A stretch of DNA of 64,000 nucleotides. Source: Bacteroidales bacterium. Lineage in GTDB: Bacteria; Bacteroidota; Bacteroidia; Bacteroidales; JAIOZK01. The first letter of the stretch is position 1. Each line of letters begins with the position of its first letter. Position numbers and translations under genes: made by a program. Shown here piece by piece: positions 1,171-32,439 of this stretch. The stretch covers positions 1 through 64,000 of the forward strand of contig JAIOZK010000019.1 of NCBI GenBank assembly GCA_021740625.1. The letters are read 5' to 3'. A model generated the notes under the pieces. It searched no databases, was not told the DNA's origin, and was given only the letters and a program-made list of their open reading frames with translations.

Positions 1171-1228
1171 ACTGCCACTGCAACTGCTACTGCCACTGCA
1201 ACTGCTACTGCCACTGCCACTACCGCTA
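1171..1228. repeat. 18-bp period GGCAGT-rich tract at a gene 3' end
   Basis: The plus strand holds ACTGCCACTGCAACTGCT at 1171 and 1189, followed by a diverged third copy up to 1227. The tract abuts and includes the TAG stop codon of the minus-strand PEP-binding gene. A homologous tract with the same junction sequence lies at the stop codon of the methylmalonyl-CoA mutase large subunit at 32,238-32,290. Confidence 0.75.
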
Positions 1229-4200
1229 CTCCTCCCCATTCACTGAGATCACCGAGATCCTCTTCTTTCCGTCCATCCTCACGACCAGTGGTTTTTCAAA
1301 GCGAACATGCCGGAAATATTGGGTGCTCTCAATCAATTTTTGCTCGGCCAGCTTTTCATATCGAATATAACTGTCGCTGATCTCGGGCTGCACGCTGAAA
1401 TAGCCCACATTCATGGAAGTTACATTATGGAAAAAATGTGATCCGGAAGAAGCATCCAGGGGATAGTCTTCAAGGCTTGTCTCCACGATGACTTTGGCAT
1501 TGGAGATCTGTGGCCATTTCACCGGGATACCGATCCATTTGTCACGCGTTCCCCAGCGGCCCGGTCCAATCAGTATGTATTTGCGATTTTCTTCATACAT
1601 TTTTTTGTTGAGGACATCGATCTCTTTGGCCATTTCTTCAGTTTTGCTTTTGTCGAAAACATTCTGATCAACATATATCACATCCTCCACATCTTTAATC
1701 ACACCATTACCCATGCCTTTTTCGGTGAACAGGACAATATCATCATTTTTGATCTTGGAAAGATCCACATTATAATCCTGTGCGCTGCCGATCAGGGGTT
1801 TGATCTGCAGCAGGTAAAAAGAAGCCCGGTTGAATTCATCCTTGTTCAGGTCGACAGCAAATTCAATTTCCACGGGCGAACCGATGGCTTCTTTCACAAT
1901 ATCCAGCACCACTTCAATCGTTTTGGCCAGTGGAATATAATTGTACTTCAGAATATTGGCAAAATTCACAATCCGCGGACCCGGCTTGTTCAATCCCGGG
2001 TAGATCATATTGCTGTCGGCATCGTAAACGGAAGCCATGTGTTTCAGGTTGCCGTGCATCTCCGCATCATCGATATCGAGCAGGCGCAGGCCGGCAGTAT
2101 CTCCCTCCAGCAGGTTCACGTTTTTCTTTTTCATGTCCACTGCGAAAAACTTAACCTGTGAATTCTTGTACTGATCTTTGGGTGAAAGAATCTCTGTTGA
2201 AGGGTACTGAGGTGAAAAGCGGAAGGCCTTATCCCCGTCGACGACGTATTTACCAAGTCCTGCAGCAATTACCGCAAAACCTTCCTCGGGTTTCATATGT
2301 GCAAAAGGGTAATAATTGTAGGATTGTGCCACACCGCTGATATGCGGGTAAAAAACATCCTCGTACTGGTTTCCAACAACCTCCTGTATGATCACCGCCA
2401 TGCGTTCTTCTTCAATTTTATAATTGATAGCTTTTACATAACCGCGGGCCGTATCCGAATAAGTAGAAGCAAAGACAAGCTTGATTGCATTCATCAGTTG
2501 CTCCAACCTCACTTTGATATCAGGATGATTGTTGGGCAAAAGGTAAGTTTCAAAAATCCCCGCAAAAGGCTGCATCATAGAATCTTCAAACAAACCGGAC
2601 GAACGGATGGCAAGTGGTTTTTTGATCTTTTTGAGGATCACCCGCAAACGCTTGATCAGGGAGTCTGTCAGACTACATTGTATGAATTTCTTTTTGATTG
2701 CCTCATAACTTTCCTCCTGCAGCACATAATCCCGCAATTTGTTCTTTTCCATGAAAAGGTCAAACTCATCCGTGCCGATCACCGAAGTTTTGGGTGCTTT
2801 GATGTTGATGTTGGACACATGCTGTGTGAAATCGTAATTGTATATGAGGGAATTGATGAAAGCCAGTCCACGACCTTTGCCGCCCAGGGAGCCATCGGAA
2901 AGGCTCACTACATTGCTCTCATCCAGGATGGCAGATTCTTCGAAGGGAATGATCTTCCCCTTGTTTTGCTCATTCCTGAATTTCTGGATCACATCGATCA
3001 GGACTTCCCGCAATTTGGCCGGACTTTCAAAATCTGTGATCTTATAAGGATTCAGGATTTTGGCAGCCTGTATTTCACCCCGCGCCATCAGCCAGAGCGA
3101 AAAATGATCCTTGCGGGCATGATACAGGAGAGATTCATCAGGAATGGTGCGCAGGTGGTTTTCGAAATCGCGCAAAGACTTGGCCACACCGATCTGCTTA
3201 CCACTTTTATCCCGGTAAATGAAATTACCGAAACCAAGGTAATAATTGATAAAGCTTTGCAGGTCCTGCACCAGGGTTTCTGAATTCTTATTGATAAAAG
3301 TCGCATTCAGTTCATGGGCTTTTTCTTCATTTTCAGCATCCGAGGACTGGACTATGGTCGGAAGTCCTTTGATAATATTCCTGGCAAACCTGGCCAGTTC
3401 GAACCCTACATTGGGATCCACCTTGCCGCCTTTGCTGTATTTGACATCCGTGATCAGGCAAAGCAGGTAATCCTTGTATTTATCAATGATCTTTCTGGCC
3501 TCTTCATAATTGGCAGCCAGGATGATTTTCGGCCGGGCCCGCATCCTCAGCACCTTGTACAACTCATCCGTACTAACATCCTGGATGATCCTCTTGGTTT
3601 GCTCCATGACGATCTTATAGAGCACCGGCAGGTATCGGGAATAATATTTGGGCGAATCTTCAACCAGCAGGATCACCCTGACCAGCCCAATCTTGGTGTC
3701 ATTTTCCAGGTTGATGTTGTCCTCAACCAGTTTGATCATGGAGAAGAAAATGCGGGAATCCCCGTTCCAGACGAACAAGCGATCAACACCGGATAAGTAT
3801 TTTTCTCCGGACTGAAAATGCTGGATATCTTTGTTGTTGTTCAACAGCAGGAAAATAGGAATATAAGGAAAGTCTTTTTTTATCTCGGCACTCAGGTAGA
3901 CAGGGGTTTGTTTGTCGGCACCTACCATGATGATGATCAGGTCGAAATGTTTGTTGCTGAGCTGCTCAAAAACTTCATCCGGTGAGGAAACTCCTGTAAT
4001 GCGCGGTACTGAGGTTAGGTTCAGTTGATGGTATTCCCCGAGCACATGTTCCGAAAATCGCCCCTCCTTTTCAATGCTGTAAGCATCATAGAGGTTTGAC
4101 ACCAACAGGATTTCCTTTACCTTGAAAGTCATCAGGTCGTGGTATATGTCACGATCGAAGTTGTTCTTGTTCAGGAATTGTTGCAAAAGTTTGCGGCTGG

Positions 4201-4714
4201 TAATGGGAGATTCCTTGTAAAACTGTTGCTTGTCGCTAATCTTTCTCTTGGGCGAATAGGATTTCCTGATGATGGAACTGCCTTTGAGTTTATCAATGTA
4301 GCCGGAAATCAGGTTGGAAAGATTGATGATCAGATCCCTTTCTTCCTTCAGGAAAGGTCCTTCGTCCGCTTCCTCGAAAGGTTTCAGGTAGCAAACCTCA
4401 ATATAACCTTTCTGGTTGTCGATGGTTTCGAATTCCTGTTTCTGCGCCCAGTTGCTGCGAACAAAACCAGGAGATTTGAACTCCATCTCACCATAACGAA
4501 TACGGGCCACAGTTTGATCAGGATACTGCCAGGCTTCCGGAAGTATTAAGACGATATGCTGCAATGTTTCTTCAATCGATTTTCCTTCCTTGAGGATGTT
4601 GGTAGTCTTGTTGATACACTCCAGCTCCTTGAGGCGCTCGCGGTATTCCGCCTTCAATTCCTGCAATCCTTTTCCGGTTTCTTCTTTCATCTTGTCATTA
4701 AAATTATCATTCAA
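1226..4714 (-). CDS. PEP/pyruvate-binding protein with receiver domains
   Basis: 1,162 residues. An N-terminal coiled segment and GAF-like region (about 1-145) is followed by a degenerate receiver-like fold (198-300, EILLVSNLYD). A second receiver-like domain (345-480) has an acidic pair at E352-D353 (LLVEDS), a candidate phospho-acceptor D423 (LITDV), SSD at 457-459 and FINK near 473-476. From about 605 onward comes the ATP-grasp nucleotide-binding domain of the PEP synthase/pyruvate phosphate dikinase N-terminus (GSLGGKGRG at 608-616, LAIRSSGLFEDS at 701-712). The phosphohistidine swivel and PEP-binding TIM barrel of true PEP synthase are absent; instead there is a long C-terminal region with GPGRWGTRDKW. 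Enzymatic output is therefore unknown. It follows the sulfotransferase by 24 bases, probably in one transcript. Its last codons merge into the repeat tract. Confidence 0.8.
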   Translation of the reverse strand: MNDNFNDKMKEETGKGLQELKAEYRERLKELECINKTTNILKEGKSIEETLQHIVLILPEAWQYPDQTVARIRYGEMEFKSPGFVRSNWAQKQEFETIDNQKGYIEVCYLKPFEEADEGPFLKEERDLIINLSNLISGYIDKLKGSSIIRKSYSPKRKISDKQQFYKESPITSRKLLQQFLNKNNFDRDIYHDLMTFKVKEILLVSNLYDAYSIEKEGRFSEHVLGEYHQLNLTSVPRITGVSSPDEVFEQLSNKHFDLIIIMVGADKQTPVYLSAEIKKDFPYIPIFLLLNNNKDIQHFQSGEKYLSGVDRLFVWNGDSRIFFSMIKLVEDNINLENDTKIGLVRVILLVEDSPKYYSRYLPVLYKIVMEQTKRIIQDVSTDELYKVLRMRARPKIILAANYEEARKIIDKYKDYLLCLITDVKYSKGGKVDPNVGFELARFARNIIKGLPTIVQSSDAENEEKAHELNATFINKNSETLVQDLQSFINYYLGFGNFIYRDKSGKQIGVAKSLRDFENHLRTIPDESLLYHARKDHFSLWLMARGEIQAAKILNPYKITDFESPAKLREVLIDVIQKFRNEQNKGKIIPFEESAILDESNVVSLSDGSLGGKGRGLAFINSLIYNYDFTQHVSNINIKAPKTSVIGTDEFDLFMEKNKLRDYVLQEESYEAIKKKFIQCSLTDSLIKRLRVILKKIKKPLAIRSSGLFEDSMMQPFAGIFETYLLPNNHPDIKVRLEQLMNAIKLVFASTYSDTARGYVKAINYKIEEERMAVIIQEVVGNQYEDVFYPHISGVAQSYNYYPFAHMKPEEGFAVIAAGLGKYVVDGDKAFRFSPQYPSTEILSPKDQYKNSQVKFFAVDMKKKNVNLLEGDTAGLRLLDIDDAEMHGNLKHMASVYDADSNMIYPGLNKPGPRIVNFANILKYNYIPLAKTIEVVLDIVKEAIGSPVEIEFAVDLNKDEFNRASFYLLQIKPLIGSAQDYNVDLSKIKNDDIVLFTEKGMGNGVIKDVEDVIYVDQNVFDKSKTEEMAKEIDVLNKKMYEENRKYILIGPGRWGTRDKWIGIPVKWPQISNAKVIVETSLEDYPLDASSGSHFFHNVTSMNVGYFSVQPEISDSYIRYEKLAEQKLIESTQYFRHVRFEKPLVVRMDGKKRISVISVNGEE

Positions 4715-30091: not shown

Positions 30092-32248
30092 ATGAAGCCG
30101 AACTTTAAAAATATAGACATCAATCGCTCCCCGAAATCAAAGCTTTCAGCGAACGAATGGGAGAAAGAGAACAAAATAGCAGCCGACTGGAAAACCCCTT
30201 CCCTGATCAATGTGAAACCGGTTTATACCAAAGAAGACCTGAAGGAGATGGAGCACCTGGAATATGCTGCTGGACTGGCGCCTTTCCTCAGGGGGCCCTA
30301 CTCCACCATGTATGTTACCCGTCCCTGGACCATCAGGCAGTATGCCGGTTTTTCCACAGCAGAAGAATCCAATGCCTTTTACCGCAGGAACCTGGCAGCC
30401 GGACAAAAGGGTTTGTCGGTGGCTTTCGACCTGGCTACACACCGCGGATATGATTCAGATCATGACCGGGTTGTGGGTGATGTCGGTAAAGCCGGTGTGG
30501 CCATTGATTCCATTCTCGACATGGAAGTTCTTTTCAATGAGATCCCCCTGAACAAAATGTCGGTTTCCATGACCATGAACGGGGCTGTTCTGCCTGTGAT
30601 GGCATTTTATATTGTGGCCGGACTGGAACAGGGAGCCAAACTGGAAGAACTTTCAGGAACCATCCAGAATGATATCCTGAAGGAGTTCATGGTAAGAAAC
30701 ACCTATATTTATCCGCCTCTGCCTTCTATGCGCATCATTGCCGATATTTTCAAGTTTACCTCAGAAAAGATGCCCAGGTTCAACTCCATCAGTGTAAGCG
30801 GTTATCATATGCAGGAAGCAGGTGCCACACCCGACATTGAGCTGGCATACACCCTGGCCGACGGGCTGGAATACCTGAGGACGGGCGTTAATGCAGGCCT
30901 TGACATCGATTCTTTTGCACCGCGCATTTCCTTTTTCTGGGCCATTGGCATGAACCATTTCATGGAGATTGCCAAGATGCGCGCCGGCAGGATGCTCTGG
31001 GCCAAACTTGTAAAAAAATTCAATCCCAAAAATCCCAAATCCATGGCCTTGCGGACGCACTGCCAGACTTCGGGATGGAGCCTGACCGAGCAGGATCCCT
31101 TCAACAATGTGGCTCGAACCTGTATTGAGGCCATGGGAGCTACCCTGGGCCACACACAATCTCTGCATACCAATGCACTGGATGAAGCCATTGCATTGCC
31201 CACCGATTTTTCAGCAAGGATTGCAAGAAATACCCAAATATATTTACAGGAAGAAACTGAAATCTGCAGGCAGGTCGATCCCTGGGCAGGCTCTTATTAT
31301 GTTGAATACCTCACCCAACAGATCGCGCAAAGGGCATGGGAGCACATACAGGAAGTAGAAAGCCTGGGTGGTATGGCCAAAGCCATCGAAACTGGCTTGC
31401 CCAAAATGAGGATAGAAGAAGCTTCGGCAAGAAAACAGGCCAGGATTGATTCAAACAAAGATATCATTGTAGGCATCAACAAATACCGACTGGAGAAAGA
31501 AGATCCGATAGAAACCCTTGAGGTAGACAATACCGCGGTGCGGGAATCCCAGATCAAAAGACTTGAAAAACTAAGAGCAGAAAGAAACAATGATGAAGTG
31601 CAGAAAGCCCTGGATACCATTACCGAAGCATGCAAAACCGGTGAGGGAAATTTGCTGGAACTTTCGGTAGATGCGGCCAGAAAACGTGCTTCATTGGGAG
31701 AAATTTCGTATGCTTGTGAAAAAGTTTACGGTAGGTATAAAGCAGTCATCAGAAGTATTTCAGGCGTGTATTCATCAGAATCAAAAGACAACGAAACATT
31801 CAGCAAGGCCGTGGAACTGGCGGATCATTTTGCAGAACTGGAAGGTCGCAGGCCCAGAATCATGGTTGCCAAAATGGGACAGGACGGTCACGACCGTGGA
31901 GAGAAAGTAGTAGCCACCGGATTTGCCGATATAGGCTTTGACGTGGACATCGGTCCCCTCTTTCAGACACCGGCAGAAGCAGCTCGCCAGGCAGTGGAAA
32001 ATGATGTGCATATCCTGGGCGTTTCCAGCCTGGCAGCAGGTCATAAAACACTTGTTCCACAGGTGATAGAAGAACTCAAGAAACTCGGCAGGGAAGACAT
32101 TATGGTGATCGTGGGCGGTGTAATCCCACACCAGGATTACGACTTCCTCTACAAAGCCGGCGCAATGGCCATTTTTGGACCCGGCACCGTGATTCCGGAA
32201 GCAGGTGTGAAATTGCTGGAGATTTTGATTGAGGCAAGGGAGGAGTAG
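30092..32248 (+). CDS. mutB: Methylmalonyl-CoA mutase large (catalytic) subunit
   Basis: 718 residues, the standard length. The N-terminal barrel binds the CoA ester ([52 protein letters not shown]). The B12-binding domain (about 585-718) carries GQDGHDRG with His600, the lower cobalt ligand, and GVSSLAAGH and VGGVIP, which bind the nucleotide tail. Reaction: (R)-methylmalonyl-CoA to and from succinyl-CoA. It forms a heterodimer with the subunit encoded just upstream. No epimerase, mutase chaperone (MeaB) or propionyl-CoA carboxylase gene is in the window. Its last codons (GGGAGGAGTAG including the stop) run into a GGCAGT-rich repeat shared with the PEP-binding gene. Confidence 0.97.
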
Positions 32249-32290
32249 TTGGTAGTGGCAGTGGGCAGTAGCAGTGGCAGTGGGCAGTGG
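32249..32290. repeat. GGCAGT-rich tract after mutB
   Basis: GGTAGTGGCAGTGGGCAGTA continues with further GCAGTGG units directly from the mutB stop codon. It matches the tract at 1171-1228 in the same orientation relative to the adjacent gene. A second short repeat (CCTGCAACC twice) follows at about 32,330-32,352. No gene up to 32,469. Confidence 0.7.
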
Positions 32291-32439
32291 ATCGTGCTGG
32301 CAGGCAGTCTGGAGAATCTGCTTTCCCCAACCTGCAACCTGGAACCTGCAACCATCTCTTCATATATAATATTTCCCGATTTATTTTGTTATTATCCCAA
32401 TTAAGAATGATTACACATTCATGAATCAAAATATATTCA

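Follow-up and report, generated by a model that had tools for sequence, protein, structure and literature searches.

Heptamer repeats near stop codons are already known in bacteria, as with the GGGAATC repeat of Xanthomonas, whose description we take to be that of Rehm (2015). In the portions of that report available to us (PMC4692102), the intergenic heptamers of Xanthomonas (GGGAATC) and Nostoc (GGGGATT) are described as G-rich on the sense strand and located at most 50 bp from a stop codon or overlapping it. They also occur in antisense orientation before start codons, and 70 inverted pairs are reported from one Xanthomonas genome. G-quadruplexes were proposed and no general association with mobile elements was noted; the same portions contain no match for S23, xcc0516 or four helix. 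The TAACTGA direct repeats of Beggiatoaceae and some Cyanobacteria and Bacteroidetes are likewise intergenic heptamers, some of which overlap the upstream stop codon (excerpts of PMC4679880).

The intervening sequence (IVS) in the 23S rRNA of Coxiella burnetii, according to excerpts of PMC4990558, carries an S23p open reading frame, stem-forming terminal inverted repeats, and heptameric repeats beside the frame. The same excerpts report that excision by RNase III has been shown and that an origin from a mobile element has been suggested. We found no paper linking such repeats to S23/IVP genes in the open-access library searched, outside which most preprints and subscription papers lie. Here we describe a little-studied and apparently mobile class of elements that normally carries a gene for a small helical-bundle protein, and to which two repeat arrays of a Bacteroidales genome probably belong.

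Two repeat arrays at stop codons

The window analysed is a stretch of 64,000 nucleotides (contig JAIOZK010000019.1, positions 1 to 64,000) of this genome (G000). Its relevant features are as follows.

1171–1225, minus strand: array of 9 degenerate hexamers (GGTAGT, GGCAGT, AGCAGT, TGCAGT), immediately downstream of the PPDK_N gene's stop and on the sense strand of that gene
1226–1236, minus strand: GGGAGGAGTAG, the final codons and stop of the PPDK_N gene
1226–4714, minus strand: PPDK_N-domain open reading frame (PF01326), 1162 amino acids, host of the first array
30092–32248, plus strand: mutB, methylmalonyl-CoA mutase (PF01642, PF02310), 718 amino acids, host of the second array
32238–32248, plus strand: GGGAGGAGTAG, the final codons and stop of mutB
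32250–32288, plus strand: array of degenerate 6/7-mers (GGTAGT, GGCAGT, GGGCAGT, AGCAGT), immediately past the mutB stop and on the sense strand of that gene
32325–32353, plus strand: pyrimidine-rich tract of CAACCTG-type 7-mers, located after the mutB array and before the gene that follows, recognized by eye

A first-pass annotation had noticed that two unrelated genes each end at a GGCAGT-type array, and this was confirmed by the presence of GGGAGGAGTAG followed by an array, with units of 6 and 7 nt, at both stops. Exactly two copies of GGGAGGAGTAG exist in the window; with one mismatch allowed, shuffled sequences contain 0.39 on average and 3 of 100 reach two. Nine matches to GGCAGTGGCAGT with at most one mismatch all fall at the two array sites (0.10 expected). 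Both host frames end in Glu-Glu-stop, which continues as TAG-C-GGTAGTGGCAGTGGCAGTAGCAGT after the PPDK_N gene and as TAG-TT-GGTAGTGGCAGTGGGCAGTAGCAGT after mutB. A scan for degenerate arrays of period 5 to 12 returned three in the window, the first at 1168–1237, and none in each of ten block-shuffled copies. Downstream of the first array, positions 945–1140 appear by eye to hold a sequence of about 75 nt twice, in similar form.

GGCAGT arrays across the genome

The annotation had further suggested a mobile repeat that targets 3' ends. Its positional part holds genome-wide. Among 31 GGCAGT arrays of at least three units, drawn from the window and the other retrieved stretches, 18 begin in the interval from 12 nt inside to 50 nt past the end of a frame on the same strand with 100 codons or more, compared with 901 of 13,600 random positions (6.6%), and none of the 31 does so in antisense. 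Several of the other 13 encode protein linkers or belong to histidine kinase-like genes; Gly-Ser or Ala-Thr linkers in coding sequence explain some of the pattern matches (L049, L064:1980–1996 and L079), all of which were kept in the denominator of 31. A triple-unit pattern has 29 matches in this genome and none in a sister species (G001). As to mobility, a mobile origin of the arrays is plausible from sequence comparison, because the sister species has neither of the window arrays and like arrays flank inserts carrying a gene of PF05635, the 23S-IVS/four-helix-bundle family.

Two histidine kinase-like genes (function assigned by eye) contain an inverted GGCAGT/ACTGCC pair inside the frame with no stop (L059:2137–2242 and L060:2198–2251). 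Elsewhere, GGCAGT arrays occur within another intergenic repeat family with shared flanks (L054:157–179, L070:2416–2432 and L071:2801–2811).

PF05635 genes between inverted arrays

The lead to these inserts was an array of the GGCAGT-type unit in genome G013 that adjoins an open reading frame for a four-helix bundle. PF05635 has 14 matches in the genome studied here and none in 14 control genomes, and most of the 14 have inverted arrays on either side, each locus with a unit of its own. GGCAGT-type arms surround PF05635 genes in this genome (L156/L074, where the gene is broken), in G013 (L143) and in G028 (L209). The only solved relative of the element proteins found by sequence was XCC0516 (2gsc).

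We compared the flanks of PF05635 genes in two sets, one from this order (79 of 88 frames, retained at E below 1e-16 and with 200-nt flanks) and one from many phyla of the GTDB (74 of 80 loci, retained with 150-nt flanks, from a conservation search with five closer proteins). The sets overlap, L196 and L293 being the same locus by junction sequence, and other genomes may be in both. At least three inverted 8-mers are shared between the two flanks of 55 of the 79 order loci, compared with 14.1% of 6162 mismatched pairs, and the mean number shared is 7.05 versus 1.05; the remaining 24 loci fall below three, and direct (non-inverted) sharing also reaches three or more in 28 of the 79. The corresponding figures for the GTDB loci are 45 of 74 versus 11.5% of 5402 mismatched pairs.

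Array detection was applied to the 155 loci with 150-nt flanks. An array was detectable on both sides of 95 of these, versus 2 of 54 control flanks from mutB and PPDK_N loci, and the period is the same on both sides in 85 of the 95. Period 7 predominates, in 73 of 116 arrays on the stop side and in 76 of 111 on the far side, followed by period 8 (27 of 116 and 23 of 111). The upstream neighbour of 116 loci is on the same strand in 98, on the opposite strand in 10 and of undetermined strand in 8. The distance from the upstream stop codon to the start of the stop-side array is at most 15 nt at 67 of these 98 same-strand loci (31/53 in the order set and 36/45 in the GTDB set). In the 85 loci with paired arms, C and G make up 10.8% and 27.8% of the stop-side arms and 28.0% and 10.7% of the far arms, and 72 of the 85 stop-side arms have more G than C.

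The RNA of one element (L155) is predicted to fold as a long stem formed by its arms (z -11.9, 20 shuffles), and an element with no gene fills the gap between stop and start codon at C13:70914–71004 of this genome (z -5.0). Three PF05635 elements (L152, L153 and L155) lie at most 6 kb apart at C44:146093–152078. In a relative (G030), a PF05635 gene sits just upstream of mutB, in the preceding junction (L201, C5:153082–153396).

L155 and its counterpart L225 in the sister species occupy one junction. Similarity between the two genomes extends to the stop codon, is lost beyond it and returns shortly after the start of the following gene (78% on each side). The gap from stop to next start is about 616 nt in the former and about 685 nt in the latter; no similarity was detected between the two inserts, which differ in PF05635 subfamily and in arms. 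At another junction the two loci compared (L152 and L199) have one PF05635 gene in common, and its arms have diverged in sequence but not in period.

A proposed class of intervening elements

Between co-oriented genes, a full element would thus consist, in order, of the upstream stop codon, a C-poor tandem array (mostly of period 7), the PF05635 gene and that array again in inverted orientation, followed by the next gene. Sequence comparison establishes the arms, their inversion, the element-specific units, the position at stop codons and the presence of two different inserts at one sister-species junction. The further steps are conditional. In the transcript the two arms would anneal to a long stem whose loop holds the protein gene, and the element could be excised by RNase III or another double-strand RNase, as happens to the intervening sequences of 23S rRNA. 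If the element left the transcript in this way, neither neighbouring gene would therefore be harmed. The elements may move or have moved, and copies that lost the gene and one arm may persist as plain repeats after stop codons, as after the PPDK_N gene and mutB.

We consider it probable that the window arrays are solo stop-side arms of this class, in which arms would give a stem, the stem would permit excision, and gene-less copies would be left as repeats. They share with stop-side arms a start at the upstream stop codon, the sense strand and the repeat unit, although almost all units of the GGCAGT family contain C, in which they differ from the many arms that are C-poor. We infer solo arms, and do not assign the arrays as full elements, because position, strand and unit fit but the gene and second arm are missing: none of the 14 PF05635 matches in the genome lies beside 1171–1225 or 32250–32288, the nearest on their contig being at C26:86603–86902, and no inverted 8-mer was found in the 600 nt downstream of either array. 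The tract at 32325–32353 resembles an arm on the side of the next gene, yet it shares no inverted 8-mer with the GGCAGT array.

The likeness to the 23S rRNA IVS, as far as the excerpted description extends, is that of a PF05635/S23 frame between paired inverted repeats, which the full elements also have. However, the IVS resides in rRNA, whereas the elements are found at stop codons in the gaps that separate protein genes, and their excision by RNase III is putative. A 23S rRNA location was rejected for the full elements: the 23S sarcin-ricin motif was near none of the 74 GTDB loci tested, and the flanks of the elements are open reading frames. Insertion sequences and MITEs have fixed terminal inverted repeats and a target-site duplication; the arms described here are inverted and vary from one element to another. 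Avd proteins of diversity-generating retroelements show some likeness, bAvd (PF22296) being matched by 6 and DivGenRetAVD by 8 of 11 element proteins; however, all 11 match PF05635 and TIGR02436. With the Xanthomonas heptamers, as the available text presents them, the elements share a G-rich sense strand at stops, and GGGAATC itself occurs upstream of some PF05635 genes (see below). The TAACTGA repeats differ, in the excerpts seen, in lying mostly by start codons, in having one fixed unit and in being read as a site of translational control.

A wider proposition, which we hold to be evenly balanced, is that PF05635 proteins belong to widespread operon elements that insert at stop codons, with inverted heptad arms and decayed remains that are a main source of the heptanucleotide repeats long observed in bacteria. 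If true, it would join two separate subjects: the S23/IVP proteins, encoded in rRNA intervening sequences and by otherwise unexplained four-helix-bundle genes, and the surplus of heptanucleotide repeats where bacterial genes end. Should the elements move and target stop codons, they would have a way to enter operons between genes while breaking neither.

Slippage and 3' function as alternatives

Tandem repeats may also grow by plain replication slippage under weak selection, for example just past stop codons, with no element involved. Degenerate units, variable lengths and the location of arrays in non-coding DNA would agree with this, as would the statement, in excerpts of PMC4679880, that heptanucleotide repeats are common in bacteria. 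Against slippage stand the strand bias of the GGCAGT arrays (18 sense to 0 antisense), the matching of inverted arms element by element around one protein family, and the density of arrays. Genomes with PF05635 hold 37 intergenic arrays per 800 kb (8 and 11 in 200-kb blocks of this genome, 8 in the sister species and 10 in G025), compared with 3 per 800 kb in genomes free of it (0 in G016, 2 in G022, 1 in G008 and 0 in G032), a difference that could follow lineage rather than the gene, since all four PF05635-free genomes are from other families. Of the 27 arrays in the first three blocks, 14 have an end no more than 20 nt from a stop codon, versus 5.1 expected (p 0.0005). We regard slippage as a rather unlikely sole cause, although it may act after insertion and shape the arms. 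From the array density in the blocks we estimate a total near 190 arrays in this genome, compared with its 14 PF05635 matches, and most of its arrays would thus be solo.

We think it quite unlikely that the arrays are instead functional 3' elements (a terminator, a G-quadruplex or a protein-binding site at mRNA ends) that selection maintains behind particular genes. Strict position and strand would suit such a role, and G-quadruplexes are among the proposals for similar heptamers in the available text of PMC4692102. However, the sister species does without both window arrays, the units vary from element to element, and neither window array folds better than shuffled sequences (z +2.1 and 0.0), so that a hairpin or terminator formed by these arrays themselves was rejected.

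Stop codons of the host genes

The strongest form of the earlier claim, in which the repeat lands in coding sequence, creates new stops and gives both proteins a shared Glu-Glu end, is highly improbable: two other genes (L050 and L072) have their stop codon inside an array, TAG is the stop at 31 of 70 array junctions versus 86 of 336 other gene ends (p 0.002), and C is depleted in the final 9 nt before array-side stops (52/630 versus 1141/6300 at -120 to -30; p 2e-11), but YKEE or FEE closes array-less mutB relatives at this very position, and the PPDK_N protein and mutB are both of normal length.

The mutB comparison comprised 30 loci, including this genome's own, among which several array-less relatives end in EAYKEE, ESYKEE or KFEE at the same place; the repeat is not what supplies Glu-Glu-stop. 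In the sister species, mutB (90% identical) has a TAA stop with no array, and the PPDK_N gene, also with no array, has TAA about six residues further on; the ends of PPDK_N relatives differ by a few residues. Because array-less relatives end alike, and the sister species has TAA stops with no array, we consider both host stops native, the orthologue ends speaking against the repeat as their maker. The C depletion and TAG excess near array-side stops indicate, therefore, that array composition reaches into the last codons, a weak form of the original Glu-Glu observation.

A genome-wide search for the shared end together with the repeat gave a divided answer, in that arrays recur at stop codons and the shared last codons do not. 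GAGGAGTAG joined to the repeat has 83 places with at most three mismatches, compared with 380 for a reversed control pattern, and was rejected as a fixed junction sequence. One place is exact (the PPDK_N gene), and the one place with a single mismatch (C26:71627) is also at a stop codon.

PF05635 genes in the Luteimonas family

PF05635 was found in 84 of 198 genomes of the Luteimonas family, where only visible arms were used. Inverted sharing averages 10.3 within loci and 8.2 in mismatched pairs, a control that is uninformative here because shared junctions are frequent among the loci and the G+C content is high. GGGAATC is present in the upstream flank of PF05635 genes at 5 of 30 loci examined. 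In two of these (L405 and L432) its exact inverted form lies downstream; by eye, their neighbours are genes for biotin carrier protein and biotin carboxylase. Six PF05635 genes of this family (L408, L410, L411, L415, L416 and L420) are at a site that resembles the carA–carB junction, as judged by eye at L411, L415 and L420, and some of them belong to reading frames that continue from upstream with no intervening stop.
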